Shown: one piece after another, positions 31,791-53,290 of the stretch | Position numbering within the stretch: position 1 is the stretch's first letter | How the letters are laid out: the number at the start of each line of letters is the position of its first letter | IMG/VR virus record: IMGVR_UViG_3300035180_002703 | Span: 1 to 64,000 of that record | From: a virus | Length of the DNA: 64,000 nt | Reading direction: 5' to 3' (one strand) | Made by a program: the position numbers and the translations under genes | The notes under the pieces: model-generated | Told to the model about the DNA's origin: nothing | Seen by the model: only the letters and a program-made list of their open reading frames with translations | Database searches by the model: none

Positions 31791-31820
31791 GATAAGCCGC
31801 CACCGTTCGCGGGGCGCACG
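31791..31820 (+). ncRNA. TAAG leader stem-loop, copy 1
   Basis: GATAAG is followed by outer stem CGCC/GGCG, a bulged A, and inner stem CCG-TTCG-CGG. It lies 17 nt before the GTG start. Confidence 0.75.
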
Positions 31821-31836
31821 TTATGGGGAGAGGGGT

Positions 31837-32634
31837 GTGGAGAAAGAGTACACGCAACAGTTGCTGGATCGCGCAGTGTGGAAACACCAGCGGTGGATGC
31901 GAGAGAAACGCTACGCGGCGCAGCGGCTCAATCTGTCAGACATTCAGCTGAACGGTCTCGATTTGTCGGGCCTTGACCTAAGCTACGCCATCTGCGTCAA
32001 CACGACTTTCAACAAGTGCAACCTGAAGGGCGTGAACCTGATGTTGGGTGTTGCGGCGCAGGCCCGATTCCTGGAATCGAATCTGCGAGGGGCTGATCTC
32101 TCCCATTCTATGCTGTCGGAGGCCACCTTCTGGGCGAGCATCCTGTCGGAGTCCGACTTTGGCAGCGCGAATTGCTCGGGTGCATGTTTTGACGAAGTAC
32201 TGCTTACCGGGGCGAGATTCAACAAGACCATCCTGTATGACGCAGTGTTCCGAAACGCTCACAACGTGCCGGAATCCGCTCGGGCGTTCTCCCGCATCAC
32301 TCCCGAAACCGGATCGTTCGAGATGTGGAAGAAATGCGACGGAGACGTGCTGGTGAGGCTTCTGGTTCCTGCGGATGCCCATCGGGAGAACGGGTGTTCG
32401 CGTCTACTGCGGGTCTCGAAAGCCGTTGTGCTGGAGATATTGGGGCCACACGGCGAAACGACGGTCAGAAACATGTCCGATCCAGATGTCGAGTACAAGG
32501 TCGGGGATGTTGTTACTCCGCGAGAAGGCTTCAACCCAGATTGGGAGAACGAGTATTCGGGAGGAATCCACGGATATCTGTCTCGCGCAGAGGCCGCATC
32601 ACCAGGTATTTACAAGATCGATGTTGACGAATGA
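31837..32634 (+). CDS. Pentapeptide-repeat protein with C-terminal domain (paralog 1)
   Basis: The product is 265 aa with a GTG start. An N-terminal helix (LLDRAVWKHQRWM) is followed by pentapeptide repeats over residues ~28-150 (LNGLDLSGLDLS, LRGADLS, CSGACF), which build a right-handed quadrilateral helix. The C-terminal ~110 residues (ITPETGSFEMWKKC...RLLVPADAHR...SKAVVLEI...GIHGYLSRAEA) match a DUF5758-like domain also found in 60354 and 63469. Such proteins may mimic DNA; the target is unknown. It has its own promoter and leader. Confidence 0.82.
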   Translation: MEKEYTQQLLDRAVWKHQRWMREKRYAAQRLNLSDIQLNGLDLSGLDLSYAICVNTTFNKCNLKGVNLMLGVAAQARFLESNLRGADLSHSMLSEATFWASILSESDFGSANCSGACFDEVLLTGARFNKTILYDAVFRNAHNVPESARAFSRITPETGSFEMWKKCDGDVLVRLLVPADAHRENGCSRLLRVSKAVVLEILGPHGETTVRNMSDPDVEYKVGDVVTPREGFNPDWENEYSGGIHGYLSRAEAASPGIYKIDVDE

Positions 32635-32685
32635 CACAGAAGCGAAACACTTAGGCGCATACATTGGAAGAGGAGGAGAGGGAAT

Positions 32686-33060
32686 ATGGTATCGATTGTA
32701 ACTGTCGCAATGCCCGTGGAGATGGGGCAGAAGCTTGAGGAACTGCGTGCGGAATACGGACACGCATCGCGGTCGGCGATCGTTCGGATGGCGGTTGAAT
32801 CGTTCATCCGCGGCGGCGGCGTGGGTGGAGAGAAAAGCAAGTGTCCTGCTCTGACGTGGCATGCGGTATCAGATCAGTTGCCGGACGATTCGGAGGTGAA
32901 GCTCGTAACCGTTCTCGACTCACATGGTGGCCGTTGTGTGGCGACGTCCTATTACATCAAAGGCAGCTGGTACAGTGATGGCCCATACTCGTCGCTTCCT
33001 GTCATTGCATGGACCGATTGGCCGGAGGCATGGGACGGAGAGGTGAAGAAGAATGGATAA
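32686..33060 (+). CDS. Ribbon-helix-helix protein fused to DUF551-like domain
   Basis: The product is 124 aa. The N-terminal ~45 residues (TVAMPVEMGQKLEELRAEYG, then SRSAIVRMAVESFI) form a ribbon-helix-helix DNA-binding unit. The C-terminal part (WHAVSDQLPDDSEVKLVTVL ... SYYIKGSWYSDG ... VIAWTDWPEA) resembles DUF551. The fusion suggests a DNA-binding regulator with a small ligand or partner domain. It overlaps the next gene by 8 bp. Confidence 0.68.
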   Translation: MVSIVTVAMPVEMGQKLEELRAEYGHASRSAIVRMAVESFIRGGGVGGEKSKCPALTWHAVSDQLPDDSEVKLVTVLDSHGGRCVATSYYIKGSWYSDGPYSSLPVIAWTDWPEAWDGEVKKNG

Positions 33061-33511
33061 TGATGGATTGCAGGTCGCCGAACGAGCAGAAGAAGAGCGC
33101 GGGGGAGAAGCGATAAAGCCTGGCGATCTGGTGATCTGCGGCGTAAATGGTGATCGAGGCCGGGTTGTGCGAACTCACACCAAGCTGGTCTGGACGGATG
33201 AACCAGAGATGAAGGTGCACGAAGAGACTGTACTCACCTGCGAGCTGCCCGAATGGAGCACGGAATGGGAGTACGATGTCGATGAAGTGACCCCGGTAGA
33301 GATTGCACCGACTGGCACGAACAATGCGAACTGCAGTATTCGCGTTGGAGACGTCATCCAACTCGAAGAGACAGGTCTGCTTGCACGGGTTGAGTCTGTT
33401 ACACTCAAGACGAAAGGTACACACGATGGAGTCAAACAGTACCTAGCATTCTCGGTCGTTATCGAACCTGGGCAACGCATGGTCTTGTGGGATACCGAGG
33501 TTGATATTTAG
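33053..33511 (+). CDS. Hypothetical protein with KOW/SH3-like beta segments
   Basis: The product is 152 aa. An acidic N-terminal ~20 residues precedes two beta-barrel-like units, each starting with a GD-x-(V/I) strand (KPGDLVICGVNGDRGRVVR and RVGDVIQLEETGLLARVE). It is translationally coupled to the RHH gene. The family is not recognised. Confidence 0.6.
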   Translation: MDNDGLQVAERAEEERGGEAIKPGDLVICGVNGDRGRVVRTHTKLVWTDEPEMKVHEETVLTCELPEWSTEWEYDVDEVTPVEIAPTGTNNANCSIRVGDVIQLEETGLLARVESVTLKTKGTHDGVKQYLAFSVVIEPGQRMVLWDTEVDI

Positions 33512-33547
33512 ACTGCGAGGAGAACAACGACGCAAAGGAGGGTGGAA

Positions 33548-33766
33548 ATGGAGAACATCGGGCTGAAAGTCGGTGACAGGGTCGTGGTGCTGCATGACGG
33601 CGAGCCGGGCAAAGTGGTGTTTCTGTCTTCCTACGGCGGATGGACAACACTCACGGTCAAGGCTGATATTGGCGGATGTGGCACATGGATGCTGAACGGG
33701 CCGGATGCGATTGCCGAGGTGGTCCGCAAGGTGCCTGCAGAAACGGGATGTATCGCCAATGCCTGA
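33548..33766 (+). CDS. Small KOW/SH3-like protein
   Basis: The product is 72 aa. LKVGDRVVVLHDGEPGKVVF is a typical KOW-type strand-loop-strand, related to the units of the preceding gene. The ATG at 33548 has GGAGGG 4-9 nt upstream. The function is unknown. Confidence 0.6.
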   Translation: MENIGLKVGDRVVVLHDGEPGKVVFLSSYGGWTTLTVKADIGGCGTWMLNGPDAIAEVVRKVPAETGCIANA

Positions 33767-33806
33767 GCTGGGGGCGTGGAGTGGAGAGGAATAGGAGGGG
33801 GAATCA

Positions 33807-34346
33807 ATGAACAAGGTCTCTCAAGAAGAAATGAAAGGAATCCTCCAGCGTCATAGTCTGTGGCTACTCACGAGCGCTGGAGGGGAGCGTGCTATGCTGG
33901 CGGGATGTGATTTGAGGGGTCTCGATCTATCGGAAGCGAACCTGGCATATGCCAACATGGCAGGCTGCATGCTCGATAATGCGAACCTTTCTCGCGCTAT
34001 GATGTCGTACGCAAACCTGGCCGACGCCACGCTGAGAGGGGTGAACGCCGTCGAGGCATCGTTCGATCGGGCCAACCTTTCTCACGCGATCCTGGCGCGG
34101 GCCGATCTGACGAATGCCAACCTGGAGTGGGCGATTTGTACGCAGACGGCATTCACCTACGCGAAGATGGATGGGATTCGGTTCTACGGCATCACGCTGG
34201 TTGGTGCATGGTTCATGGGAACGTCGGCTGTCGGCCATATGATAGAGGCTGCCAAGTATGATTTGAAGAACGCGCAGTGGACGCTCGACCGCATCGAAGA
34301 AGAGACCGAGAGACAGGCCAAACACGCACAGTTGTCGCAGTCGTAG
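33807..34346 (+). CDS. Pentapeptide-repeat protein (paralog 2)
   Basis: The product is 179 aa. An N-terminal helix (EEMKGILQRHSLWL) is followed by about 18 pentapeptide repeats from residue ~32 to 130 (LRGLDLSEANLAYANMAG, ANLSHAILARADLTNANL). A C-terminal charged helix (LDRIEEETERQAKHAQ) lacks the DUF5758-like domain. The ribosome site is GGAGGGGGA. It is first of four adjacent paralogs. Confidence 0.85.
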   Translation: MNKVSQEEMKGILQRHSLWLLTSAGGERAMLAGCDLRGLDLSEANLAYANMAGCMLDNANLSRAMMSYANLADATLRGVNAVEASFDRANLSHAILARADLTNANLEWAICTQTAFTYAKMDGIRFYGITLVGAWFMGTSAVGHMIEAAKYDLKNAQWTLDRIEEETERQAKHAQLSQS

Positions 34347-34353
34347 CGTGCCC

Positions 34354-34380
34354 CAGTAAGCCGCCACCTTAGGGGGCGCA
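34354..34380 (+). ncRNA. TAAG leader stem-loop, copy 2
   Basis: AGTAAG, outer stem CGCC/GGCG (34362-34365 / 34375-34378), inner CC-TTAG-GG. It has no adjacent promoter, so it acts on an internal mRNA segment. It precedes the 34399 gene. Confidence 0.72.
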
Positions 34381-34398
34381 TGGGCAAGGAGGGGTGGG

Positions 34399-35079
34399 AT
34401 GACGAATAAGATGTCGCAGGAGAAGCTGGATCGGATTCTGGATGCACACGAGGCATGGCTGGGGAGGAAACCTGGAGGCAGAAGGGCTAGGCTGTGCGGA
34501 AAGAACATGTCGGGGCTGAACTTCGCGGGCCGTACGCTGAGGCACATCATCTTGGCAGACGCCGAACTGCACGGTGCGAACCTGTCCGGGGCCGATCTCG
34601 ACGCAGCGAATCTCAGTTGCGCGAACATGTGGAGGGTAAATGCAGAGCGAGCAACTTTCCGAGAGACGGACCTTTCTTGCGCCGATCTCTCAGGTGCGAG
34701 GCTGTTCGACGCCGATCTCGATACAGCGAATCTCAGTCACGCGAAGATGTGGGGTGCGAATGCGGAGCGGGCGGCTTTCCGAGAAGCGAACCTTTCTTGC
34801 GCCGATCTGCGGAAAGCGAACCTAGAAGGATCGGTGTTTACCCAGGCTAATCTGTCTGGAGCTCGCCTATCAGGTGCGCATATCGACGGCGCTAAGTGGA
34901 CGGACGCCGTCATGGCGATTGCGGATGTTCGCGATGTGGCTCCGACCGAGGAATTCCTGGATGCTTTTTACGATTGGAAGATATGTGTAGACAGTGCATA
35001 TACAACTTGCTGCCAGCGTTACGCAGTGGCGGTAGCCACCCAAACGAATGGCGCTGACGAAACGGAGGGGGAACAATGA
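34399..35079 (+). CDS. Pentapeptide-repeat protein (paralog 3)
   Basis: The product is 226 aa. An N-terminal helix (EKLDRILDAHEAWLG) is followed by regular repeats to residue ~165 (ANLSGADLDAANLSCANM). The block with ERATFRETDLSCADLSGA is duplicated internally about 40 residues later (ERAAFREANLSCADLRKA). A short helical tail follows. It overlaps the next paralog by the ATGA arrangement. Confidence 0.85.
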   Translation: MTNKMSQEKLDRILDAHEAWLGRKPGGRRARLCGKNMSGLNFAGRTLRHIILADAELHGANLSGADLDAANLSCANMWRVNAERATFRETDLSCADLSGARLFDADLDTANLSHAKMWGANAERAAFREANLSCADLRKANLEGSVFTQANLSGARLSGAHIDGAKWTDAVMAIADVRDVAPTEEFLDAFYDWKICVDSAYTTCCQRYAVAVATQTNGADETEGEQ

Positions 35080-35657
35080 AGCGAATGACACAGAAGAAGC
35101 TGAACAAGATTCTGGATGCACACGAGGCGTGGCTTAGGATGGAGAAGAAAGGGAAGAGGGCCATGCTTTGTGGAAAGAACATGTCCGGCTTGGACTTCTC
35201 GGGGCGAAAGCTGAGACACGCATGCATGGCGCATTCCGTTCTGATGTATGCGAACCTGCGGGGTGCGGATTTCTCAGATGCCATTCTGATCGACGCGATT
35301 ATGCTAGGAGCCGACGCAGAGAATGCGGTGTTCTGGAACGCGCACCTAACATCTGCAAATTTGTTGGATGCGAACCTGCGGAATGCGGACTTCACTCAGG
35401 CGATCGTTGTGGGGATTCTTCTAACGGAGGCGAACACGAAGGGGGCGATCTGGGACGACGCTGTTCGGCAATACTGGAATAAGCCCATGTGGTACTGGGA
35501 AACCGAGTTCGGAGAGTCGAAACATGACACAAACGAAACGGAGGGGGACAATGAAGCGAATGAAGCCAATGACACAGAAGGAGCTGAACAAGGTTCTGGA
35601 TGCACATCAAGCGTGGCTGAAACTGAGGAAGGGCGAGATGGCTGTCCTAGCCAGTAG
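35076..35657 (+). CDS. Pentapeptide-repeat protein (paralog 4) with extended out-of-register C-terminus
   Basis: The product is 193 aa. A helix (KKLNKILDAHEAWLRM) is followed by repeats to about residue 130. The last ~38 residues are acidic low-complexity (NETEGDNEANEANDTEG) because the stop expected at the boundary is lost. The boundary sequence differs from the 34399/35076 junction by one missing A, so this frame runs 107 bp into the next gene. The extra tail is probably accidental. Confidence 0.8.
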   Translation: MKRMTQKKLNKILDAHEAWLRMEKKGKRAMLCGKNMSGLDFSGRKLRHACMAHSVLMYANLRGADFSDAILIDAIMLGADAENAVFWNAHLTSANLLDANLRNADFTQAIVVGILLTEANTKGAIWDDAVRQYWNKPMWYWETEFGESKHDTNETEGDNEANEANDTEGAEQGSGCTSSVAETEEGRDGCPSQ

Positions 35658-36078
35658 GAACATGTCCGGCTTGGACTTCTCGGGCAGGAACTTGTTCTTG
35701 GCAAACCTGTCTCGTGCTGATCTGCATGGCGCAAAACTGAGAGGTACGGACCTGCAGTCTTGCGACCTGAGCGGTGCGGATATGCATGATGTGGATGCAG
35801 AGGGTGCGTCATTCGAGAAGGCTCAGTTGACTCGTGCGTGCCTGAGGAAAGCGAACCTGCGCAGAGCAAATTTTAGCAAGGCGTGTCTTGCTGGCGCTGA
35901 TCTATCGGGTGCACATATCCAGAACGCAGTCTGGGATTATGCCGACATGAACTTCGGGTTTGCCAACGGAGTAATGCCGAGGGAAGAGCTGTTAGAGGCC
36001 CTGAAGCAGTGGAAGCTCCGTGTTGATGCCGAGTACGAGAAGTTCTGCGCGGATGTTGAGGAACACTCGGAGAAATAG
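35551..36078 (+). CDS. Pentapeptide-repeat protein (paralog 5)
   Basis: The product is 175 aa from the ATG at 35551, which follows GGAGGGGGA as in its paralogs. The helix KELNKVLDAHQAWL is followed by repeats (ANLSRADLHGAKLRGTDLQS, SGADMHDV) to about residue 135 and a charged tail. It starts 107 bp before the end of the upstream gene, in another frame. It is followed by a consensus promoter. Confidence 0.83.
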   Translation: MKRMKPMTQKELNKVLDAHQAWLKLRKGEMAVLASRNMSGLDFSGRNLFLANLSRADLHGAKLRGTDLQSCDLSGADMHDVDAEGASFEKAQLTRACLRKANLRRANFSKACLAGADLSGAHIQNAVWDYADMNFGFANGVMPREELLEALKQWKLRVDAEYEKFCADVEEHSEK

Positions 36079-36108
36079 CTTGACAAACCCGAAGAAGACG
36101 GGATATAA
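36079..36108 (+). promoter_or_regulatory. Sigma-70 promoter
   Basis: TTGACA, 18-bp spacer, TATAAT, beginning at the stop codon of the upstream pentapeptide gene. It feeds leader copy 3. Confidence 0.85.
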
Positions 36109-36120
36109 TATGTACGTAGA

Positions 36121-36155
36121 AAGCCGATAAGACGCTACCTGTTACGGAGCGCGCG
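36121..36155 (+). ncRNA. TAAG leader stem-loop, copy 3
   Basis: GATAAG, outer stem CGCT/AGCG (36133-36136 / 36148-36151), bulged A, inner CC/GG. The C-G to T-A change is compensatory relative to the CGCC/GGCG copies. Confidence 0.78.
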
Positions 36156-36173
36156 GGCTGAGGGGGAATGAGC

Positions 36174-36509
36174 ATGAAGCGTGTGGTAAATGGCCTGCTG
36201 TACGATACCGACACTTCCCATTTGATTGCGGAGGGCTTGTCGAGAGACTATTGGGGAAGATCAGCATGGCAAGGCAGCCTGTATATCACGCCGAGGTCTC
36301 GCAGATGGTTCGTAGTGGGCCACGGCGATCCCGATAGCATCTTTTCGGGAATCCCAAATAACGAGGGGATTGTGCCAGTCGACTCCAAGTTTGTCGTGGA
36401 CATGCTCGAATACGTTGAGGAAGACGTGTTCAACATACTGCTGAAGTACAAAAGCGATCTTGGAATTCGCGATGCCGACGAAGTGCCAATTGGCACGGTC
36501 GGCTGCTAG
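36174..36509 (+). CDS. Small protein of the YDT/GPxS family (paralog 3)
   Basis: The product is 111 aa. It begins MKRVVNGLLYDTDTSHLIA and has GSLYITPRSRRWFVVGHGDP. A C-terminal helix ends DLGIRDADEV. It is closely related to the next gene (TPRSRRWF and IxDADxV are identical). The ATG at 36174 is preferred over 36168 for ribosome-site spacing. The function is unknown. Confidence 0.72.
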   Translation: MKRVVNGLLYDTDTSHLIAEGLSRDYWGRSAWQGSLYITPRSRRWFVVGHGDPDSIFSGIPNNEGIVPVDSKFVVDMLEYVEEDVFNILLKYKSDLGIRDADEVPIGTVGC

Positions 36510-36524
36510 AAAGGAGAGGGAACA

Positions 36525-36872
36525 ATGAAGCAAGTCATTGACGGTATTCGCTACGATACCGAGAAGGCGGTTCCTGTTGCGCGGGTCTCCGGCAATAGCG
36601 GAACCCCGCACTGGTTCAGTGGCACGCTCTACATCACTCCGAGGTCTCGCCGGTGGTTTATGTCGGGCGATGGCGGTCCATACAGTCCGTTCGGCCAGAG
36701 CGTCGGCTGGGGCGCATACGCCAGCGGATCGGGGATCGCACCTCTAACTCCGGAGCGCGCTCGGGAGATTCTTGAGGGAGGGGATGATGAGTGCCAGAGC
36801 GCGATGGAAAGGTATGCCGAGGAGCTCGGCATCGTCGACGCGGATGACGTGAAGGAGCTGGCCACTGTCTGA
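36525..36872 (+). CDS. Small protein of the YDT/GPxS family (paralog 4)
   Basis: The product is 115 aa. The order MKQVIDGIRYDTEKAVPVA, GTLYITPRSRRWFMSGDGGP and PERAREIL, then EELGIVDADDV, defines the family. It follows its paralog in tandem with an AAAGGAGAGGG ribosome site. Relatives in other bacteria have the same YDTETA and GPxSxF features, without known function. A strong terminator-like hairpin follows. Confidence 0.74.
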   Translation: MKQVIDGIRYDTEKAVPVARVSGNSGTPHWFSGTLYITPRSRRWFMSGDGGPYSPFGQSVGWGAYASGSGIAPLTPERAREILEGGDDECQSAMERYAEELGIVDADDVKELATV

Positions 36873-36883
36873 TCGGTCCAGAA

Positions 36884-36915: not shown

Positions 36916-36930
36916 GAAGAATAGAAGGGG

Positions 36931-36959
36931 TTGACAAGCCGACTATCGTATGATATAAT
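36931..36959 (+). promoter_or_regulatory. Sigma-70 promoter
   Basis: TTGACA, 17-bp spacer, TATAAT. It feeds leader copy 4 and the helical-protein genes at 37020 and 37438. Confidence 0.87.
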
Positions 36960-36971: not shown

Positions 36972-37003
36972 AAGCCGATAAGCCGCCAACAAGAGGCGCA
37001 CGG
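36972..37003 (+). ncRNA. TAAG leader stem-loop, copy 4
   Basis: GATAAG, outer stem CGCC/GGCG (36984-36987 / 36995-36998) with a simple 7-nt loop AACAAGA. This copy has no inner stem. Confidence 0.72.
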
Positions 37004-37019
37004 CGAAAGGAGAGGGAAC

Positions 37020-37328: not shown

Positions 37329-37329
37329 C

Positions 37330-37389
37330 TGCCGAAACCGGCTTTCGGGCCGGTCTGCACCGGGCGGCTCCCGGCGCACTGAAGAGGCA
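37330..37389 (+). ncRNA. Type II hammerhead ribozyme, copy 1
   Basis: All core elements are present. GAAA (37334-37337) is followed by stem III (37337-37342 / 37349-37354). The cleavage site falls after C37355. Stem I (37356-37364 / 37370-37378) leads to CTGAAGA (37379-37385). The open stem II is TGCC (37330-37333) with GGCA (37386-37389). It lies between two genes and directly before leader copy 5. Cleavage would separate the 37020 mRNA from the 37438 mRNA. Confidence 0.88.
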
Positions 37390-37422
37390 AGCCGATAAGT
37401 CGCCACCTTAGGGGGCGCAACG
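37390..37422 (+). ncRNA. TAAG leader stem-loop, copy 5
   Basis: GATAAG, outer stem CGCC/GGCG (37401-37404 / 37414-37417), bulged A, inner CC-TTAG-GG. It follows the hammerhead directly and ends 16 nt before the ATG at 37438. Confidence 0.78.
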
Positions 37423-37437
37423 GAGGGGAGGGGAGAA

Positions 37438-42362: not shown

Positions 42363-42755
42363 ATGGTTGGTTCCCGTCGGATGAAGTACGGCAATAACCG
42401 GGTTCGGGTGGATGGGCAGTTGTTCGACTCTGTCGGAGAGTACGAGCATTGGAAGCATTTGCGGGAACGGGAGGCTGCCGGGGAGATCAGTGATCTGAAG
42501 CGACAGATGGCATTCGAGCTTGCTCCGTCACTTGTCCTCTGGGGTCGCAAGAAACCTGCATTGCGATACATCGCCGATTACGTGTACATGGAGAACGGCG
42601 AGCGTGTTGTCGCTGACTACAAGGGCGGGCCGCTGACGCCATTGTTTCGCGCGAAGGCGCATCTGCTGAAGGCGGTGCATGGCATCGATATCCTCATTGT
42701 GCGTGGTCGGGCCGATCGTCGCGGGAGGGGCGGAAATGAAGCGAATAACGCTTGA
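42363..42755 (+). CDS. DUF1064 nuclease-like protein
   Basis: The product is 130 aa. KYGNNRVRVDGQLFDSVGEY (about 6-25) is the family opening, followed by a helix and ISDLKRQ. The conserved IADYVYMENGERVVADYKGG block then carries acidic and Lys residues of a PD-(D/E)XK-type site. DUF1064 proteins are small phage nucleases near replication genes. It overlaps the next gene by 20 bp. Confidence 0.8.
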   Translation: MVGSRRMKYGNNRVRVDGQLFDSVGEYEHWKHLREREAAGEISDLKRQMAFELAPSLVLWGRKKPALRYIADYVYMENGERVVADYKGGPLTPLFRAKAHLLKAVHGIDILIVRGRADRRGRGGNEANNA

Positions 42756-44127
42756 TCTGAATGATCTGGTTGTGCAGGGAAACATTCGGCGTTTGACGTT
42801 TGCCGAACGGGGCGCGTTCGACATATTATTGGAGCAGTATATCACGCGCGGAGGCTCGCTGCCGTTGGACGTGGACGAATGTTGCGATTTGGCCTCGGCG
42901 CGAACTGAGGAGGATCGGGCGGTAGTGAAGTCGACGCTGTCGGCGGCGTTTCGTGCGACCGATGATGGTTGGCGCAGCACCTGGGCCGATGGTCTCGCGG
43001 AGCGTGTCGGTCGGCGTTCGGACACCTATCGGGAGAATGCCGTGGCGCGTTGGTCGAAGTCGCGGAATGGCGTTGATATCGCTGATAATGCATGCAATAG
43101 CATCGGCGAAAATGCAATTGCAATGCAATTGCATCCGGAGAAATGCAATTGCATCGGCTCGAACGGGATCGGACCGAAAATCGCATCTGATAGTGCTGAT
43201 AATGGCGTTGATATCGCTGATAACTCATGCAATTGCATCGAATCACATGCAATTGGAATGCAATTGCATCAGGCGGAATGCAATTGCAATGCAATAGCAT
43301 CGGCGGGAATGCAATTGCATCAGGCGGAATGCAATTGCAATGCAATAGCATCAGATTGCATGAATTCGCATGGAATCGCGTCGAAAAGCGTCCAAGATGG
43401 CGATGATGACGCTGTTTCTGACGTTCCCCCCCCTTATAACCCCCCTATATACAAAGACTCTATACTAATACAAAGAGTCTTTGACTCTAAGAGACTCTCT
43501 ACCTCTGAAGACTCTATATCTAACAAAGAGTCTTGTAAGACTCTAAAAGACTATAAAGACGAAGAGAGTCTTGGCGTTGAGAAGAGAGATTGTACGAATT
43601 ACCACTCTTGCGCAAATCGCGTCGATTTTGCGCTTTTCGATGTCGAAAACGACGTTGAAGCACAGGGCGATGGCGTTGCGCAACCTGACGTCGCGAACAA
43701 CGCCACGACGCTGGACCCGGGGCACGGTGGTAGTAGTCGCTCGAAAGGATGGACCGCGGAGGAAGTGAAGGAGAAACAGTTGCGTGGCTTCAACAGGTTC
43801 TGGGAACTTCAACCCCGAAAGGTCGATAAGGCTCGGTGCTGGGCATGGTGGCAGCGCAACGTTCGCGAACGCGGCATCGCTCCGGCTATCATCAACGGCT
43901 TCAAGGCATATCTCGCCACGTGCAATCCGGAGGATAACTTCAAGTACGCGAAGCGACCCATAACCTGGCTCCGTGGTAGGTGCTGGGAGGACGAAGGGCT
44001 CGATCCTTCTGCTCTGGAGGCTGTTCTACCTGCTCGCGAACCCATCCGCGATCTCGGATTCGAGTATAGTGCAGAGAATCTCGAACGAACGCTCGGAATC
44101 TCGCTTCCACGCGCGAAAAGCGGCTAA
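42736..44127 (+). CDS. Initiator-like replication protein with iteron-encoded central region
   Basis: The product is 463 aa. The N-terminal ~100 residues (LDLNDLVVQGNIRRLTFAER, GAFDILLEQYI, ARWSKSRNG) resemble DUF1376-type phage replication proteins. Residues ~115-215 are low-complexity (CNCI, AIAMQLH, NCNAIAS) because the DNA there consists of ATGCAATTGCAT iterons. Residues ~235-285 are encoded by an AT-rich AGACTCT tract. The C-terminal ~140 residues (FNRFWELQPRKVDKARCWAW) form a helical helicase-recruiting-like domain. Placement directly before dnaB supports initiation. An origin inside the gene is inferred. Confidence 0.7.
   Translation: MKRITLDLNDLVVQGNIRRLTFAERGAFDILLEQYITRGGSLPLDVDECCDLASARTEEDRAVVKSTLSAAFRATDDGWRSTWADGLAERVGRRSDTYRENAVARWSKSRNGVDIADNACNSIGENAIAMQLHPEKCNCIGSNGIGPKIASDSADNGVDIADNSCNCIESHAIGMQLHQAECNCNAIASAGMQLHQAECNCNAIASDCMNSHGIASKSVQDGDDDAVSDVPPPYNPPIYKDSILIQRVFDSKRLSTSEDSISNKESCKTLKDYKDEESLGVEKRDCTNYHSCANRVDFALFDVENDVEAQGDGVAQPDVANNATTLDPGHGGSSRSKGWTAEEVKEKQLRGFNRFWELQPRKVDKARCWAWWQRNVRERGIAPAIINGFKAYLATCNPEDNFKYAKRPITWLRGRCWEDEGLDPSALEAVLPAREPIRDLGFEYSAENLERTLGISLPRAKSG
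43092..43351 (+). repeat. ATGCAATTGCAT iteron array inside initiator gene
   Basis: Perfect 12-bp palindromes start at 43123, 43143, 43227, 43258 and 43309. About seven one-or-more-base variants lie between 43092 and 43351. A 51-bp unit is directly duplicated (offset 43278 to 43329). Confidence 0.8.
43431..43575. repeat. AT-rich AGACTCT/AGAGTCT tract beside the iterons
   Basis: Many copies of AGACTCT and its complement AGAGTCT occur in AT-rich sequence. It follows the iterons, as an unwinding region would. It remains coding in the initiator frame. Confidence 0.65.
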
Positions 44128-45968: not shown

Positions 45969-46080
45969 TGGTAACGTTTTGGTCAATTTCAGGCTGTTTG
46001 GTAAGGCTTTGGTAAGGCGATGGTCAAGTCCTGGTAAGTTTGGTAAGGCTTTGGTAAGCTTCTGGTAAGGCTTTGGTACC
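45969..46080 (+). repeat. 11-bp-phased TGGTAAG repeat array (candidate origin iterons)
   Basis: TGGT starts at 45969, 45980, 45999, 46010, 46021, 46032, 46041, 46052, 46063 and 46074; most steps are exactly 11 bp. The consensus is TGGTAAGGCTT. It lies in the non-coding gap after dnaB and faces an AT-rich stretch. Confidence 0.85.
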
Positions 46081-46711: not shown

Positions 46712-46714
46712 AAA

Positions 46715-46772
46715 GCCGAAACCGGTCTTCGGGCCGGTCTATGCAGGACGGCTACCTGCATACTGAAGAGGC
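46715..46772 (+). ncRNA. Type II hammerhead ribozyme, copy 2
   Basis: GCC GAAA (46715-46721) is followed by stem III (46721-46725 / 46734-46738), with cleavage after C46739. Stem I (46740-46747 / 46755-46762) leads to CTGAAGA (46763-46769), and GGC closes stem II. Stem I differs at many paired bases from copy 1 while remaining paired; both stem I loops contain CGGCT. It directly precedes leader copy 6. Confidence 0.88.
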
Positions 46773-46780
46773 AAGCTTCT

Positions 46781-46810
46781 GCATAAGTCGGCACCTTCGG
46801 GGCCGCGGCA
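46781..46810 (+). ncRNA. TAAG leader stem-loop, copy 6
   Basis: CATAAG, outer stem CGGC/GCCG (46789-46792 / 46802-46805), bulged A, inner CC-TTCG-GG. The C/G swap in the outer stem is compensatory relative to CGCC/GGCG. Confidence 0.8.
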
Positions 46811-46824
46811 GGTTGGAGGTAGAT

Positions 46825-47133: not shown

Positions 47134-47153
47134 CTTTGGCGTTGTGCTAGGCG

Positions 47154-47185
47154 CATAAGTCGGCACCTATCGGGCCGCGGCGCAT
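47154..47185 (+). ncRNA. TAAG leader stem-loop, copy 7
   Basis: CATAAG, outer stem CGGC/GCCG (47161-47164 / 47174-47177), bulged A, inner CC-TATC-GG. It shares the swapped outer stem with copy 6. Confidence 0.78.
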
Positions 47186-48318: not shown

Positions 48319-48596
48319 TGGACGCGAATCTGTTTTCGAAGTTCGTCTGCATGGTCAACGACCGCAAGGATGGTAAGACGTTCGGCGCGGATTTGAGGCT
48401 CAGGCCGAGTGGTCGTTTTATCCTCGTCGCTGACGAAGTCGAAGTCGCGAAGGCGCTGGGGCGGGAATACTACGACTGCGACCCGCGGAGGACTGCCATT
48501 GTCGAGATCAGCGTTCGCGATGCGTTCGCGATGATGGCGCGTGACTGTGACGAAGAGACTCTTGCGCACTATGCCCGCGTGTTGGCGCGGGCATAG
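48318..48596 (+). CDS. Hypothetical protein, ALGR family (paralog 1)
   Basis: The product is 92 aa. It has beta strands (GADLRLRPSGRFILV), then a VAKALGREYYDCD helix, and a VRDAFAMMARDCDEETLAHY end. The next gene shares LR-x-x-P-x-GRF-x-V, ALGR and (D/E)-ETL-x-x-YA. The overlap TAATG couples it to 47767. The family is not recognised. Confidence 0.64.
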   Translation: MDANLFSKFVCMVNDRKDGKTFGADLRLRPSGRFILVADEVEVAKALGREYYDCDPRRTAIVEISVRDAFAMMARDCDEETLAHYARVLARA

Positions 48597-48611
48597 GAAG
48601 GAGGCGGAGGA

Positions 48612-48914
48612 ATGTCTGCAAAGTCGCGTTCGACGGGGTACCGAGAAGAGCGGTCGGAACATGTCTGCGTTCTCAGTACGCTATCGTACCATAATCCGTT
48701 TGGGCCGGAATTGCGGATAATGCCAGATGGCAGGTTCTTCATGGTCGGAAACGCGGGCGAGATCGCTGACGCGTTGGGACGGGATACCTGCGAAGGCAGT
48801 CGGTGGGCTAGCGTCGTTGTGTCGATCACGGCGCGCGAGGCGTTCGAACTACTGACGCGCGAAGGTGATTCGGAAACGTTGTCGCGCTATGCGTTCGCGC
48901 TAGCTGGCATGTAG
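48612..48914 (+). CDS. Hypothetical protein, ALGR family (paralog 2)
   Basis: The product is 100 aa and is paralogous to the upstream gene. The shared blocks are ELRIMPDGRFFMVGNAGEIA, DALGRDTC and SITAREAFELLTREGDSETL. It is last in a six-gene unit; a promoter follows. The function is unknown. Confidence 0.64.
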   Translation: MSAKSRSTGYREERSEHVCVLSTLSYHNPFGPELRIMPDGRFFMVGNAGEIADALGRDTCEGSRWASVVVSITAREAFELLTREGDSETLSRYAFALAGM

Positions 48915-48938
48915 GGAAACATACCAGGCAACGAACAC

Positions 48939-48967
48939 TTGACAAGTCTTTGCGGGCGTGATATAAT
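48939..48967 (+). promoter_or_regulatory. Sigma-70 promoter
   Basis: TTGACA, 17-bp spacer, TATAAT. It feeds leader copy 8 and the 49035/49415 genes. Confidence 0.88.
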
Positions 48968-48990
48968 ATGTGTGTTGGTGAACGGGAGGG

Positions 48991-49020
48991 GCCGGTAAGT
49001 CGCCACTACGGGGCGCGCGG
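48991..49020 (+). ncRNA. TAAG leader stem-loop, copy 8
   Basis: GGTAAG, outer stem CGCC/GGCG (49001-49004 / 49012-49015), bulged A, inner C-TACG-G. It is followed by CGCGGTTCGGAGG. Confidence 0.78.
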
Positions 49021-49034
49021 TTCGGAGGTGTTCG

Positions 49035-49418
49035 ATGGACGCGAAGGGGCTGGCGGTTCGTGTGAACGCGTTGCAGTGGCGAATCTGGAAGGGCGTCGGG
49101 GTCGAAGTGTCTTATGATGACGCTTACCGATTGCGAGGGGCGGCGGAGAGTCTGCGCCGGTGGTATCGCATGGAATACGGAAACGGGCGCGGTCAGGTAA
49201 CGCGCGATAAGTCTGGCAGGTCGGTTTTCGTCGATTGCGTTACGACTAAGGCGAAACCGGTTCCAGATCGTGAGGCGGTGGCGTTGCGTGAGGTTATGGA
49301 GGTATGCGCAAGGTGCGGTTTGGCATACCGAACGAGCCACGATTTCCGTGGTTCGGTCTTGTTCGTGTTCTCTCAGTCGGATACTACTGCGCATCCGAAG
49401 GCGGTCGCGTGCGAATGA
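49035..49418 (+). CDS. Hypothetical protein, LRRWY family (paralog 1)
   Basis: The product is 127 aa. It has GVEVSYDDAYRLRGAAESLR followed by RWYRMEYG, a central basic strand, and VMEVCARCGLAYRT, then RGSVLFVF. The gene at 51196 shares these blocks in order. It is the first gene behind a promoter and leader; its end overlaps 49415 by 4 bp. No known family. Confidence 0.65.
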   Translation: MDAKGLAVRVNALQWRIWKGVGVEVSYDDAYRLRGAAESLRRWYRMEYGNGRGQVTRDKSGRSVFVDCVTTKAKPVPDREAVALREVMEVCARCGLAYRTSHDFRGSVLFVFSQSDTTAHPKAVACE

Positions 49419-49996
49419 GACCGCGAACCGATTGGGCGCAGATCGCGCCGAAACACTGGGACCGTGTCAGCGTCGGCATGGCGAACGCTGTGCTGCGCGT
49501 GGCGCGCGTGGTACATGGCGCGCGGAATGACCTCGAAACATGGATAACGTCAAGCGCCGTACCTGTGCGGGGCGAGTGGATGGGGGAGCATCCGAAGTTG
49601 GAGGATATCGCCGAAGGGCTTTCCGTTGTCGAGGATTTGCCGTTCGTGTCTCAGTATGATGGGCGATTCCACTACTACCAGGACATTCGAGAAGGGATTT
49701 TCTCGTGTCGCGTGTCCGAGCCCGTTCATGGCGGAGCTGTCGAAACGATCATAGAAACTGGTGCGGGTTGGTCCGCGCTTGCGGGGATGGTCGATTCCGA
49801 GGGGTTCTGCGAGGTTCGCGGAAACATGGAGAAGGCGGATTCCTACTGGTACGAGGCGTGGGCGGCGATAGGTTTGACGGCACCTATGGGGCCGGTTATG
49901 AAACATGGAGAGGGAGAGTGTCTGCGGTGGTTCAAGCGCGGATACGGGCATTATGCCGGGCCCATTCAGCTGTCGTTACTCTTGGAGGCGGTCTGA
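49415..49996 (+). CDS. Hypothetical protein, WG-RH-AW-RAW family (paralog 2, divergent)
   Basis: The product is 193 aa from the ATG overlapping the upstream stop. It has the helix VSVGMANAVLRVARVVHGAR, an SSAVPVRGEW block and a late YWYEAWAAIGL. These correspond to the NAALGIAREYG, SSVVPQAGGW and AWRAIGIEP blocks of 37832. It lacks the WG-RH signature in full, so the link is weaker than for the others. Confidence 0.58.
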   Translation: MRPRTDWAQIAPKHWDRVSVGMANAVLRVARVVHGARNDLETWITSSAVPVRGEWMGEHPKLEDIAEGLSVVEDLPFVSQYDGRFHYYQDIREGIFSCRVSEPVHGGAVETIIETGAGWSALAGMVDSEGFCEVRGNMEKADSYWYEAWAAIGLTAPMGPVMKHGEGECLRWFKRGYGHYAGPIQLSLLLEAV

Positions 49997-50023
49997 ACGG
50001 GAGCACGAAAGCCGGGGGGGGGC

Positions 50024-50052
50024 TTGACAAGCTCTGTCGAGTGTGATATAAT
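50024..50052 (+). promoter_or_regulatory. Sigma-70 promoter
   Basis: TTGACA, 17-bp spacer, TATAAT, preceded by a GGGGGGG run. It feeds leader copy 9. Confidence 0.88.
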
Positions 50053-50073
50053 ATGTGTGCAGTTGGACGGGGG

Positions 50074-50110
50074 GCCGATAAGTCGCCATTGCCAGTCTGG
50101 CAGGCGCGCG
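50074..50110 (+). ncRNA. TAAG leader stem-loop, copy 9
   Basis: GATAAG, outer stem CGCC/GGCG (50084-50087 / 50103-50106). The inner stem is extended to TGCCA-GTC-TGGCA (50090-50102). Confidence 0.82.
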
Positions 50111-50126
50111 GTTCGGAGGAATGAAG

Positions 50127-50798
50127 ATGGACGCGGAGCAGGTTTGGGCGGCGTTGCCGGTGCGTTTGAAGAATGTGGCGCTTGCCATGGCCCGTGAGTA
50201 TAATCACGGGTGGGCCGCGTCGTCTGCAGTACCGCCGGCGGGCGAATACTGGGAGTTTCCGGAGGAGGTCCCGTCGTTGGATCAGATCAAGGCGGGAACT
50301 CCTGAAGGACCGCGCGGGCGTGGTATCGCCGGCCCGTGCGTGTCGGGAGCTGACGGATTCTTGTACATTACTCATGGCTCGGCCACGGGCAGGCTGCTCA
50401 TTATCGTTCGGTATTCGGAGCAGGAGGGCGAGCGGTATACCGTGCGCATCGCTCGTCCGAACGGGAGGAACGCGCAGGGAACATACTGCGTGGATCAGCA
50501 GCAGTATGCCGGGAGCGCGGAGGCTACCGCGTGGGGCCCGCGGCATTTTGCCGCGTGGCATCGCGCGTGGGGAGTGCTTGGCCTTTCTCCGGCGTTCCCG
50601 GAACTCGCGCGAGAGTGGGAGTTCGACTTGACGGAGGAAGGAATCCCGAATGACGGGCGGTTGGAGTTTGCGACCGTTCACCTGCGGGCGGGAGCCCGTC
50701 CGCGGGCGGAGGACTTGTATGATTGTCTTCGCATCGCTGACGCAGTCTATGTTCACGGGGCGAACGGAGGAGTCGCCCGGATAGTTGCGCAGGACTGA
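50127..50798 (+). CDS. Hypothetical protein, WG-RH-AW-RAW family (paralog 3)
   Basis: The product is 223 aa. The blocks VALAMAREYNHGWAASSAVP, AQGTYCVDQQQY, WGPRHFAAWHRAWGVLGLSP and a C-terminal YDCLRIADAVYV align with 37832 over the full length. The ATG at 50127 has better ribosome-site spacing than 50121. It stands alone behind promoter and leader copy 9. The function is unknown. Confidence 0.68.
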   Translation: MDAEQVWAALPVRLKNVALAMAREYNHGWAASSAVPPAGEYWEFPEEVPSLDQIKAGTPEGPRGRGIAGPCVSGADGFLYITHGSATGRLLIIVRYSEQEGERYTVRIARPNGRNAQGTYCVDQQQYAGSAEATAWGPRHFAAWHRAWGVLGLSPAFPELAREWEFDLTEEGIPNDGRLEFATVHLRAGARPRAEDLYDCLRIADAVYVHGANGGVARIVAQD

Positions 50799-51057
50799 TC
50801 GGCGGGAGCAGGTTCGGGCGCGTGCAGGTGCGGGCGAGGGGCGCAGAGTCTCTCGCTCGTGCTTGCGCGTGCTCGTGCGTGTCGGGCGCGTACGCGGGCG
50901 CATACGGTCGGGCGCGTGTTCGTGGTACCCGCGGGCGTTCGCGCGCGTCTCCGTCGATCCTGGCGCGATTATGGCGCATTCTGGCAGGGGCCCGGGCCGT
51001 CGTGCGTGCGTGCGTGCGTGTTCGCGTGCGTGCGTTCGCGTGTTGCCGTCTATGGTA
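50799..51057. other. Non-coding GC-rich low-complexity gap, unit 1
   Basis: No supportable gene is seen. The sequence alternates GCGTGC and GGGCGC words, contains a CGTG tandem run near 51002-51020 and dispersed repeat copy 2 at 50944-50984. A longer stretch (about 50820-50985) is homologous to 52270-52457. Confidence 0.65.
50944..50984 (+). repeat. Dispersed 41-bp repeat, copy 2
   Basis: It contains CCGTCGATCCTGG, then GCGATTATGGCGCATTCTGG. It is part of a longer homologous segment shared with 52418. Confidence 0.65.
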
Positions 51058-51079
51058 TCTGGCAATAGGCGAAACATAC
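51058..51079 (+). repeat. 22-bp repeat upstream of promoter, copy 1
   Basis: GGCAATAGGCGAAACATAC and three preceding bases recur exactly at 52684-52705, at a similar distance before the next promoter. A degenerate form lies at 48904-48926. Confidence 0.65.
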
Positions 51080-51102
51080 CGGGATAATCTTTCGGGCAGG
51101 GC

Positions 51103-51131
51103 TTGACAGGTTCGGCGGCGCATGGTAGTAT
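51103..51131 (+). promoter_or_regulatory. Sigma-70 promoter
   Basis: TTGACA, 17-bp spacer, TAGTAT. It feeds leader copy 10 and the 51196 gene. Confidence 0.83.
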
Positions 51132-51143
51132 ATATGCATAACT

Positions 51144-51180
51144 ACCGATAAGTCGTCACTACCGAGAGGCAGGGCGCGCG
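51144..51180 (+). ncRNA. TAAG leader stem-loop, copy 10
   Basis: GATAAG, outer stem CGTC/GGCG (51154-51157 / 51173-51176, one T-G). The inner stem CTACC/GGCAG has one mismatch and a GAGA tetraloop. Confidence 0.78.
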
Positions 51181-51195
51181 GTGCGGAGGGGTGAC

Positions 51196-51570
51196 ATGGA
51201 CGCATACGATAAGACCGAACTCGTTCGGTTGCGGATTCTCGCCGGGTGCGGTGTCAAGCTTGCCTTTGATGATGCGCAGACTCTGCGCCGGGCCGCGCGA
51301 ACGCTTCGCCGCTGGTACGAGGCGGAATGTGGGGATGCATCGGGCGTCGTTTTCCGCGGGCCGGGCGGTAAGCCGTTCCGCGAGTCTTATACGGGCGCGT
51401 CTGTTCCCGTACGCGATATGGAGTCTGGCGCGGTCCGCCGCGTGCAGGAGGTTTGTACGCGGTATGGGCTAAGCTATAAGCTGAACACGGACCCGCGCGG
51501 CGGCGTGCTATATGTTACGTCTCCCGCGTTGTCGTTAGATTATTCGTTCGGTGTGCCCGTCGACGTTTGA
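51196..51570 (+). CDS. Hypothetical protein, LRRWY family (paralog 2)
   Basis: The product is 124 aa; the start at 51196 follows GGAGGGG. GVKLAFDDAQTLRRAARTLR then RWYEAECG, VQEVCTRYGLSYKL and RGGVLYVT match 49035 in the same order. The function is unknown. It lies behind promoter and leader copy 10. Confidence 0.65.
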   Translation: MDAYDKTELVRLRILAGCGVKLAFDDAQTLRRAARTLRRWYEAECGDASGVVFRGPGGKPFRESYTGASVPVRDMESGAVRRVQEVCTRYGLSYKLNTDPRGGVLYVTSPALSLDYSFGVPVDV

Positions 51571-51606
51571 TGGGGCGCAGGTTCGGGCGGGGTGCTGGTA
51601 GTCGCC

Positions 51607-51640
51607 GGTAAGGCGCTAACGCGAAGGCGGGCGCGCGGCG
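51607..51640 (+). ncRNA. TAAG leader stem-loop, copy 11
   Basis: GGTAAG, outer stem CGCT/GGCG (51614-51617 / 51630-51633), inner CGC-GAAG-GCG. It has no promoter next to it. Confidence 0.75.
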
Positions 51641-51653
51641 CAGGAGGGATTCG

Positions 51654-52058
51654 ATGGATTCTCATGAGGTGTGGGCGGCGCTTCCGGAGCATGTGCGCGA
51701 AGTGGCGCAACGCATCGCGCGCGAATACGGGCCGAATGTCTCTCTTTCCGAGTCGGCGTTCGAGTGTTGCGGCGGGTTGTGTTGGGGATACCGCGGGTAT
51801 GACGGGGCCCGATTCTATATCGCGATACTCTGGACCGAGGATAGGGGGTTGCGGTGCTTCGTTGGGGTCGACGGATACCTGCCGCATATCGCATATGGTT
51901 CGTGTTCGCTGACGGACGGGAAACTGCTTGAGCATCATGCAGACTCGGGAGAGTGGCAGGACCGTCACTATGCGGCGTGGCGTCGCGCGTGGGGCGCAGT
52001 CGGGTTGTCTGTGCCGTTTCCGGGAGCGGCGCAGGAGGTTCGCTATGATTGTCTGTGA
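51654..52058 (+). CDS. Hypothetical protein, WG-RH-AW-RAW family (paralog 4, shortened)
   Basis: The product is 134 aa. VWAALPEHVREVAQRIAREY matches the N-terminal helix of the family and HYAAWRRAWGAVGLSVPFPG matches its AW-RAW helix; the central beta region is compressed. It overlaps the next gene by 14 bp. No domain is known. Confidence 0.63.
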   Translation: MDSHEVWAALPEHVREVAQRIAREYGPNVSLSESAFECCGGLCWGYRGYDGARFYIAILWTEDRGLRCFVGVDGYLPHIAYGSCSLTDGKLLEHHADSGEWQDRHYAAWRRAWGAVGLSVPFPGAAQEVRYDCL

Positions 52059-52254
52059 TTATCACTCCAAGGGCCGGGGCGCGTCGTTCTCCGGGTCTCG
52101 GGTGACTATTCGGACCGCTTCAGGCAGTGTAGTCGACGTTATCTACGTGCCGTCATGGTACGGTTTGAGGTACCTGCGGCAGCATCCGTCTGGTACATAC
52201 GGGCGCAGGTTCTCGGCGGCGTGCGCGCGGGCCCGGGAGTTGGATCAGGGCTAA
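52045..52254 (+). CDS. Hypothetical small basic protein
   Basis: The product is 69 aa; the ATG at 52045 follows GGAGG inside the upstream gene. It has a beta-rich, basic sequence (SKGRGASFSGSRVTIRTASG) and a SAACARARELDQ tail that resembles the Arg/Ala-rich tail of 53303. The function is unknown. Confidence 0.58.
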   Translation: MIVCDYHSKGRGASFSGSRVTIRTASGSVVDVIYVPSWYGLRYLRQHPSGTYGRRFSAACARARELDQG

Positions 52255-52683
52255 GCGCGGTTCTCGGCGGGCGCAGTAAGCGGGCGGGAGGCGCAGAGTC
52301 TCTCGCCCGTTCGCGTGCGTGCGTGCTCGTGCTCGTGCTCGTGCGTGCGTGCGTGTCGGGCGCGTACGCGGGCGCATACGGTCGGGCGCGTGTCGCAGGT
52401 ACCTGCGGGCGTTCGCGCGCGTCTCCGTCGATCCTGGAGCGGTTGCGGCGCATTCTGTCGCGGTGGTAGTCTGTCGGCGGCGTGTTCGCGTGTCGGTCGT
52501 TCGCGCGTGCGTGTTCGCGTGCACTACCTGCCGGGCGCGGTGGTAGTCTACCTGCCGGCGGCGCGGGCTGGATCGGGCGGCGCAGGTACCACGGCGGGCG
52601 CGTCGTGCTCGTGCTCGTGCGTGCGTATGCGTGCGTGCGTATGCGTGCGCGTGCGTGTTCGCGTGCGCGTTGCCGGGGGGTTG
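52255..52683. other. Non-coding GC-rich low-complexity gap, unit 2
   Basis: No supportable gene is seen. It is homologous to the 50799-51057 gap over its first ~190 bp, then contains GCGTGCGTGC and CTCGTG runs. It holds dispersed repeat copy 3 and ends with the 22-bp repeat and a T8 tract before the 52738 promoter. Confidence 0.65.
52418..52457 (+). repeat. Dispersed 41-bp repeat, copy 3
   Basis: CGCGTCTCCGTCGATCCTGG starts this copy, which is preceded by GCAGGTACCTGCGGGCG, the word that later seeds the long repeat tract. Confidence 0.65.
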
Positions 52684-52705
52684 TCTGGCAATAGGCGAAA
52701 CATAC
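52684..52705 (+). repeat. 22-bp repeat upstream of promoter, copy 2
   Basis: Identical to 51058-51079. It is followed by a T8 run, so it may include a terminator or upstream promoter element. Confidence 0.65.
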
Positions 52706-52737
52706 TAAGTTTTTTTAGTCGCGGCTATTGACTCGGC

Positions 52738-52766
52738 GCGCGCGGCGTGGTATTATCTATGCATAA
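52738..52766 (+). promoter_or_regulatory. Sigma-70 promoter
   Basis: TTGACT, 17-bp spacer, TATTAT. It feeds leader copy 12. Confidence 0.8.
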
Positions 52767-52767
52767 C

Positions 52768-52803
52768 AACCGGTAAGGCGCTATCGCAAAGGCGAGGCGC
52801 GCG
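52768..52803 (+). ncRNA. TAAG leader stem-loop, copy 12
   Basis: GGTAAG, outer stem CGCT/GGCG (52779-52782 / 52796-52799), bulged A, inner TCGC-AAAG-GCGA. Confidence 0.8.
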
Positions 52804-52819
52804 GTTCGGAGGAATGAAA

Positions 52820-53203
52820 ATGGACGCTCTGCAGCAGGTTCGCGAAGCATGGGCCGGTCTGCCGTACCTGGTGAAGGCGCGCGCGGGCGCGGTGGCGGCA
52901 GTGTTCAACGTCGACGAGCCTTCTGACTATGCGTTTGTCGGTTCAGACGGTGCCTATGGCTGGTCGTGTGCGGTAGTTCCGAGCGGGCTTTCTGTTCTCA
53001 TTCGTTCCCGGGCGTCCGGTATGCTCCTGGTCGTTACTGTGTACAACGAGGAAGGGCAGGCTATCACGGCGTCGATCGGAGAGGACATGTTCGAAACTAC
53101 AACGATCGGTACGGAGTGGGGGCCGCGGCAAGCGGCGCTTTGGAATCAGGTTTGGGCGGTTCTCGGATACCGTATGCCGTTTCCTGTTCCCGTGAAGTGC
53201 TAG
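52820..53203 (+). CDS. Hypothetical protein, WG-RH-AW-RAW family (paralog 5)
   Basis: The product is 127 aa. The family core is kept as EWGPRQAALWNQVWAVLGYR, with RQ in place of RH. The N-terminal helix LPYLVKARAGAVAAVFNVDE fits the same plan. The ATG at 52820 is preferred over 52814 for spacing to GGAGG. The function is unknown. Confidence 0.63.
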   Translation: MDALQQVREAWAGLPYLVKARAGAVAAVFNVDEPSDYAFVGSDGAYGWSCAVVPSGLSVLIRSRASGMLLVVTVYNEEGQAITASIGEDMFETTTIGTEWGPRQAALWNQVWAVLGYRMPFPVPVKC

Positions 53204-53255
53204 GCGTGCAAGGGCCGGGCGGGGCGCAAGCTCCGCTCGGCTTGCAGGTCGCCGG

Positions 53256-53290
53256 TAAGTCGCTAACGCCGGAAGGCGGGCGCGCGGCGC
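53256..53290 (+). ncRNA. TAAG leader stem-loop, copy 13
   Basis: GGTAAG, outer stem CGCT/GGCG (53261-53264 / 53279-53282), inner CGCC-GGAA-GGCG with a GGAA tetraloop. It precedes the 53303 gene. Confidence 0.8.

Follow-up and report, generated by a model that had tools for sequence, protein, structure and literature searches.

The DNA considered here (the window) comprises bases 1-64000 of the 74,464-base virus record IMGVR_UViG_3300035180_002703, a tailed phage with portal, terminase, DnaB-like helicase and DNA clamp families among the window proteins, and contains thirteen copies of a short stem-loop, the TAAG element, in front of small accessory genes. The reading favoured for this element, to which a probability of about 0.5 is assigned, is that of a new cis-acting messenger RNA (mRNA) leader module of double-stranded DNA phages, serving translation initiation and mRNA 5' ends and located at mRNA starts for which either a promoter or a ribozyme is responsible. 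At the level of sequence, its structure, its covariation, its repeated use, its coupling to ribozymes and promoters, its spacing towards the start codon and its spread in unrelated phages are documented. The element represents a new family of structured RNA without a counterpart in Rfam 15.

Fold and covariation of the TAAG element

In the preliminary description of this DNA, the element was depicted as a TAAG word followed by an outer stem of four base pairs, a bulged A and a variable hairpin. While stem, bulge and hairpin were correctly identified, the stem referred to as outer was found to be the middle helix (P2), and the helix which actually encloses the element (P1) had been missed. P1 became visible by aligning the copies on TAAG, as the strands 5' of R-TAAG-N and 3' of C-R are complementary. 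Rather than being a free word, the TAAG present in all copies forms one side of an internal loop, and the element, which spans approximately 31-39 nucleotides (nt), is arranged in the order P1 - RUAAGN - P2 (CGNY/RNCG) - bulged A - P3 hairpin - P2' - CR - P1', whereby the freely variable P1 immediately flanks the invariant internal loop 5'-RUAAGN / 3'-CR.

The covariation which had been claimed was confirmed for both helices, for P1 more strongly than for P2. When ten window copies with P3 trimmed were placed in a hand-anchored alignment, 99% of the pair cells were paired and 8 of the 10 pairs were compensatory, with 37-56% paired when the partners were slid by 1-3 columns as a control. Extension to 38 copies (37 distinct) yielded 96.4% paired cells and again 8 of 10 compensatory pairs (slid controls 35-53%), with U-G pairs being tolerated (seven at one P2 pair). 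The nine copies from outside the window-related phages gave 95.6% when taken alone, all four P1 pairs being compensatory, and for their alignment RNAalifold predicted the same ten pairs. Pairing is thus kept in unrelated phages, and the copies are not simple recent duplicates. A less circular test of P1 was obtained by selecting matches outside the window group by the inner motif only: P1 was paired in 9 of 10 matches preceding a Shine-Dalgarno word and start codon versus 2 of 8 elsewhere (Fisher p=0.009).

Copies and promoters in the window

Covariance models R1 and R2 were built, the E-values of which are rough as the models were short-calibrated. With R2, exactly thirteen copies were found in the full 74,464-base record, all of them on the plus strand and none within its structural-gene parts; these are the copies described before, each lying within a few nucleotides of its original position. 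Likewise, the division into seven copies with and six without a promoter was borne out, the seven being preceded by sigma70 promoters close to the consensus (10-12 of 12 hexamer matches, plus strand) with the end of the -10 box 12-23 nt upstream of the element. Copy 1 (31788..31822, TAAG at 31793, P1 AACG/CGTT, R1 36.2 bits, R2 44.0 bits) follows the promoter 31746..31774 (TTGACA-17-TATAAT), copy 3 (36123..36157, TAAG at 36128, P1 GCCG/CGGG, 35.8 bits, here and below with R1) the promoter 36080..36109 (TTGACA-18-TATAAT) and copy 4 (36974..37004, TAAG at 36979, P1 GCCG/CGGC, 31.2 bits) the promoter 36931..36959 (TTGACA-17-TATAAT). The same promoter type, TTGACA-17-TATAAT, precedes copy 8 (48991..49021, TAAG at 48996, P1 GCCG/CGGT, 35.6 bits; promoter 48939..48967) and copy 9 (50074..50112, TAAG at 50079, 32.4 bits, with a long P3; promoter 50024..50052), while copy 10 (51144..51182, TAAG at 51149, P1 ACCG/CGGT, 35.8 bits) is located behind TTGACA-17-TAGTAT (51103..51131) and copy 12 (52769..52805, TAAG at 52774, P1 ACCG/CGGT, which can extend to AACCG/CGGTT, 35.0 bits) behind TTGACT-17-TATTAT (52728..52756).

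Among the six promoterless copies, two, namely copy 5 (37391..37424, TAAG at 37396, P1 GCCG/CGG, 34.0 bits) and copy 6 (46779..46811, TAAG at 46784, P1 CTGC/GCAG, 42.4 bits), reside directly 3' of type II hammerhead ribozymes. For the remaining ones, which are intergenic, neither a promoter nor a ribozyme was found: copy 2 (34352..34384, TAAG at 34357, P1 CCCA/TGGG, 44.1 bits), copy 7 (47151..47183, TAAG at 47156, P1 GCGC/GCGC, 44.4 bits), copy 11 (51604..51639, TAAG at 51609, 31.0 bits) and copy 13 (53251..53288, TAAG at 53256, 30.6 bits).

Ribozymes upstream of the element

The hammerhead preceding copy 5 (37330..37397, plus strand) matches Rfam family RF02276 with 38.7 bits (gathering score 37) and starts directly 3' of the stop codon of the preceding gene, its predicted cleavage site being 37355/37356. 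The one preceding copy 6 (46714..46780, plus strand; predicted cleavage 46739/46740) starts 3 nt past a stop codon and reaches 31.0 bits, which is below the gathering score (E 0.014 in 36 kilobases). In the RF02276 alignment both possess an intact core, with CTGAAGA, CGAAAC, the cleavage triplet GTC and an open stem II, and they have the same stem III; the predicted cuts are located 35-40 nt 5' of P1. The 3' tail of the first hammerhead (AGCCG) overlaps P1 of copy 5, so that pairing could be passed from the ribozyme to the element's P1 once cleavage has occurred; most other hammerhead-associated copies do not have such an overlap.

Within the 15 carrier records, 11 type II hammerheads were identified, 10 of which adjoin an element (one such element being truncated by the contig end), and the RF02276 gathering score was reached in 7 of the 15 records. 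Behind the eleventh hammerhead (G002, L004:427-495, minus strand) lie first a terminator-like hairpin, next a promoter and then the element, an arrangement which is perhaps intermediate between ribozyme-made and promoter-made 5' ends. In addition, a twister-P1-like ribozyme was found in G008/G009 only (L077:2334-2385), where it adjoins the second element. It scores 26.6 bits against RF03160 (gathering score 67.2), but its core UAAC...CCGGUCnCAAnCCCGG...GGAG aligns and its P1 closes; it belongs to the maker of the 5' end and not to the leader element. Its closing strand has the bases AGC in common with P1 of the element. At L087:919-973 there is also a twister ribozyme of type P5 with a strong score (56.5 bits); it is intergenic, directly precedes the Shine-Dalgarno word of the second gene and is not followed by a TAAG element.

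Two predicted ways to a 5' end and the distance to the start codon

Taking all 38 copies together, 18 reside behind a promoter that matches the hexamers at 9 or more of 12 positions and that of L074 behind a weaker one, nine follow a ribozyme, nine have neither and one lies at a contig end. The promoter background per 75-nt window amounts to 3.8% at 9 or more of 12 hexamer matches and to 1.5% at 10 of 12, and the promoter-type copies begin approximately 0-17 nt past the expected transcription start. That the element belongs to the mRNA leader rather than to the promoter, as proposed in the preliminary description, is supported by its following ribozymes as well as promoters. Homologous genes provide further insight: two 95-amino-acid homologues, 62% identical, both carry the element, one behind a promoter (L005:8757) and the other behind a hammerhead (L015:9085), and of the 225-amino-acid homologues carrying it, that of L007 follows a hammerhead, that of L002 (76% identical) follows neither and that of the window at 50121 (38-43%) follows a promoter. 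In these predicted arrangements homologous genes retain the element, while the 5'-end maker changes between promoter, ribozyme and neither.

In the copies measured, the start codon was found approximately 10-17 nt 3' of P1' with a Shine-Dalgarno word in between, the start codon after the Shine-Dalgarno word having been read by eye where the script chose an earlier in-frame or overlapping start. The spacing on the 5' side is more variable. This held 3' spacing together with the looser 5' spacing therefore indicates a relation to translation initiation. The preliminary interpretation, in which mRNA stabilisation, enhanced translation and binding of a phage protein were listed as possible functions, was supported in part; besides P1, it had overlooked that the element is coupled to ribozymes and lies at a fixed distance from the start codon.

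Spread of the element among phages

As a search of viral contigs by DnaB-helicase synteny identified no relatives, these were traced by DNA pattern scans of viral contigs, complemented by one scan of bacterial genome contigs, with the pattern matches being filtered by covariance model score and context. All sequences are metagenomic, and 29 of the 38 copies derive from one group of related phages. With the covariance model, the element was detected in eight phage lineages with G+C contents of about 0.30-0.58, most of which have no proteins in common. The window-related group (L002, L004, L005, L007, L008 and L015) is connected by tail, methylase and accessory genes. The seven other carriers (L074, L076/L077, L081, L084, L087, L092 and L096) gave no mutual protein matches in all-against-all blastp, and towards the window group only few distant blastp matches were obtained, from G009/L077 (primase, tail fibre) and G007/L074. 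L087 is a contig in a Clostridia metagenome-assembled genome and L096 one in a Saccharibacteria metagenome-assembled genome. In these other lineages P1 was found as GATT/AATC, AGCC/GGTA, GAGG/CCTC, AAGG/CCTA, AAGG/CCTT and GTCC/GGAC.

A search with R2 through the bacterial classes to which L087, L096 and L092 belong (291, 147 and 146 genomes, respectively; about 580 in total) yielded nothing beyond these three carriers; this near-absence from bacterial genomes argues for a phage element and for a specific model. A number of pattern matches (L003, L006, L032, L043, L078, L079/L086, L080, L085, L089, L091, L093, L095, L097, L100 and others) were judged to be chance matches, as they lie inside or opposite coding sequence or lack P1 pairing or a leader position.

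The portal and primase relatives of the window phage are scattered among Bacillota, Actinomycetota and Acidithiobacillus phages with below 35% identity, and no host was assigned; AcaML1, the best primase relative, has no element in the 50 kilobases searched. Proteins encoded downstream of elements have no relatives among annotated phages, and those compared with Pfam and PHROG matched no family except pentapeptide repeats, so that gene function gives no clue to the element. A series of pentapeptide-repeat proteins is encoded at 31837-36078 of the window, two with a TAAG element in front and one with DUF5758.

Possible function and alternative explanations

The suggested mechanism assumes that short phage mRNAs carry the element at their 5' end, the end being generated through transcription from a strong promoter or through self-cleavage of a ribozyme. 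In the latter case, a type II hammerhead, or in one phage the twister-like ribozyme, would cut the polycistronic transcript in vivo just past the upstream stop codon. Non-canonical contacts within the RUAAGN/CR loop would keep the fold together, and the fold would then act on translation initiation and 5'-end survival: as a compact structure it may sit beside the Shine-Dalgarno word on the platform of the 30S subunit and may shield the 5'-triphosphate or the ribozyme-made 5'-OH. Each accessory gene would thereby become an independently translated, stable message, with some copies also being placed between genes without a promoter or ribozyme.

Several findings weigh against this leader reading. 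The computed accessibility of the Shine-Dalgarno word is the same as for other window genes (p=0.75), which leaves Shine-Dalgarno sequestration, or a simple open-closed switch, unsupported. About nine copies have neither a promoter nor a recognised ribozyme, hence a free 5' end is not obligatory, and most copies come from the one related phage group. Nearest-neighbour folding assigns P1 a weak median probability of 0.15, with 0.62 for P2, values which use fixed pair indices and are no more than approximate where the 3' loop of a copy contains an additional nucleotide. Because of the low P1 probability in these energy models, the fold probably leans on non-canonical contacts or on a partner. 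Finally, covarying inverted repeats also occur in DNA-binding sites.

As the main rival, though clearly less probable than the leader reading, a translational operator has to be considered, in which the invariant loop is bound by a phage or host RNA-binding protein that switches all accessory genes on or off. The repetition of an identical loop before many unrelated small genes resembles a regulon, the location beside the ribosome-binding site would suit an operator, and a conserved loop within freely varying stems is typical of protein-binding hairpins. A phage gene common to all carriers was sought by all-against-all blastp, several records being fragments, and none was found. At blastp sensitivity this renders a dedicated phage protein, which the preliminary description had allowed for, less likely, and the binder would probably be a host protein. 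The carriers, however, range in G+C content from about 0.30 to 0.58 and probably have different hosts.

Somewhat less probable still is a pure 5' stabiliser, that is, a terminal stem-loop which blocks the access of RppH, RNase E or RNase J and has no direct role in translation. The start of promoter-type copies within few nucleotides of the expected transcript end and the ribozyme-made ends approximately 35-40 nt upstream would fit such a function. Yet it is on the 3' side that the spacing is kept, with 10-17 nt between border and start codon as opposed to a variable 5' distance; intergenic copies exist, and for plain stabilisation a stem-loop requires no invariant internal loop.

That the element itself is a new small self-cleaving ribozyme or an RNase processing site appears improbable. 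Small and compact, with invariant loop nucleotides, and found beside hammerhead and twister ribozymes, it would have the appearance of one, but a second cut directly 3' of known ribozymes would be redundant, at promoter-made ends it would trim only few nucleotides, and the element matches no Rfam ribozyme. An even smaller chance is given to an antitermination element acting on RNA polymerase in a put-like or nut-like manner. Many copies do lie close behind promoters, but Rho/nut/put-type antitermination was rejected on the fixed start-codon spacing and on boxA counts, as in a lambda-type nut test boxA was not enriched (5 near-matches, where 11 were expected, and none of them at an element); moreover intergenic copies exist and related phages have terminator-like hairpins just 5' of the next promoter-element unit. 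A DNA operator or a chance low-complexity repeat, suggested by the covariation which inverted repeats in DNA sites can display and by the GC-rich, repetitive region, is very improbable given that the element follows ribozymes as well as promoters, always has the same orientation as the gene downstream, accommodates U-G pairs and has almost no high-scoring matches in the about 580 bacterial genomes.

Extending the leader reading, it is tentatively proposed, as a possibility rather than an expectation, that the element may be a portable, host-independent start-of-message RNA, recognised by conserved host machinery (the ribosome platform or RNA decay enzymes) and marking phage messages for translation or survival, with 5' ends coming interchangeably from promoters or ribozymes. 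If true, phage hammerheads and twisters, the role of which has long been puzzling and which are found here in fixed partnership with a covarying leader beside the Shine-Dalgarno word, would gain a defined job, namely making leader-bearing 5' ends. This partnership makes the idea of ribozymes cutting phage operons into single messages directly testable, and it adds an RNA family which Rfam lacks and which is found in phages of widely differing G+C content. Should the leader boost translation or prolong mRNA life in different hosts, it would be useful as a compact expression part.

Relation to known families and systems

In line with the preliminary description, which knew of no matching family, comparison with Rfam 15 gave no match for the TAAG element, neither in gathering mode nor with E up to 3 (36 kilobases of the window) or up to 10 (four low-GC carriers); a chance match to U6 small nuclear RNA (18 bits) overlaps the L092 copy on the opposite strand. 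No earlier description of the element was found in the open-access literature, to which the search was confined. A structured 5' leader beside the Shine-Dalgarno word is shared with 5' stabilising stem-loop leaders and with platform-docking mRNA structures; to our knowledge, these are individual cases without an invariant internal loop common to many genes or phages.

By analogy, the nearest relatives are the SAS and ESAS elements of cluster K mycobacteriophages, which occur in multiple copies just 5' of translation starts in a subset of genes and whose function is unknown (PMC3203893). Of the two, both described from one phage cluster, SAS has a conserved sequence of 13 bp, GGGATAGGAGCCC, and ESAS is formed by an imperfect inverted repeat of 17 bp (PMC3203893). 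Like the TAAG element they are located at several phage translation starts, with or without extra upstream parts, and SAS/ESAS are mostly gene-oriented. Unlike them, the TAAG element has free stems and an invariant internal loop, crosses unrelated phages and is coupled to ribozymes. The SAS word GGGATAGGAGCCC has no match in the window with up to 2 mismatches.

The hammerheads upstream of the element belong to the type II family RF02276, members of which are known from phages and prophages (PMC3088659), and for phage hammerheads a role in cleaving transcripts into mRNAs of one gene each has been proposed (Perreault et al. 2011, PMC3088659). In the passages of that work considered here, no downstream leader motif is described. 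In the arrangement reported here, hammerhead and promoter can be exchanged for one another as the means of putting the same leader near a 5' end.

Further observations

The 10-mer GGCAATAGGC, followed in the window by GAAACATAC, lies at 51061-51090 and 52687-52716, ahead of two window promoters, and is also found in related phages (L144:5765 and L149, minus strand, 5057), there ahead of two intergenic elements that have neither promoter nor ribozyme. Window positions 53340-56650 contain dense tandem repeats, for example TACCTGC with 16.6 copies at 56037-56152 and many TACCCGGC-like units, which yield long open reading frames of doubtful coding value. An 11-bp unit, TTTGGTAAGGC, is repeated 7.6 times at 45997-46078 in noncoding DNA 3' of the helicase gene and may represent iterons or a replication origin. 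Repeated ATGCAATTGCAT palindromes, which produce false mir-33 matches, are located at 43083-43353 within the gene 42679-44127 (primosomal and replication initiation families) and may mark an origin inside the initiator gene.

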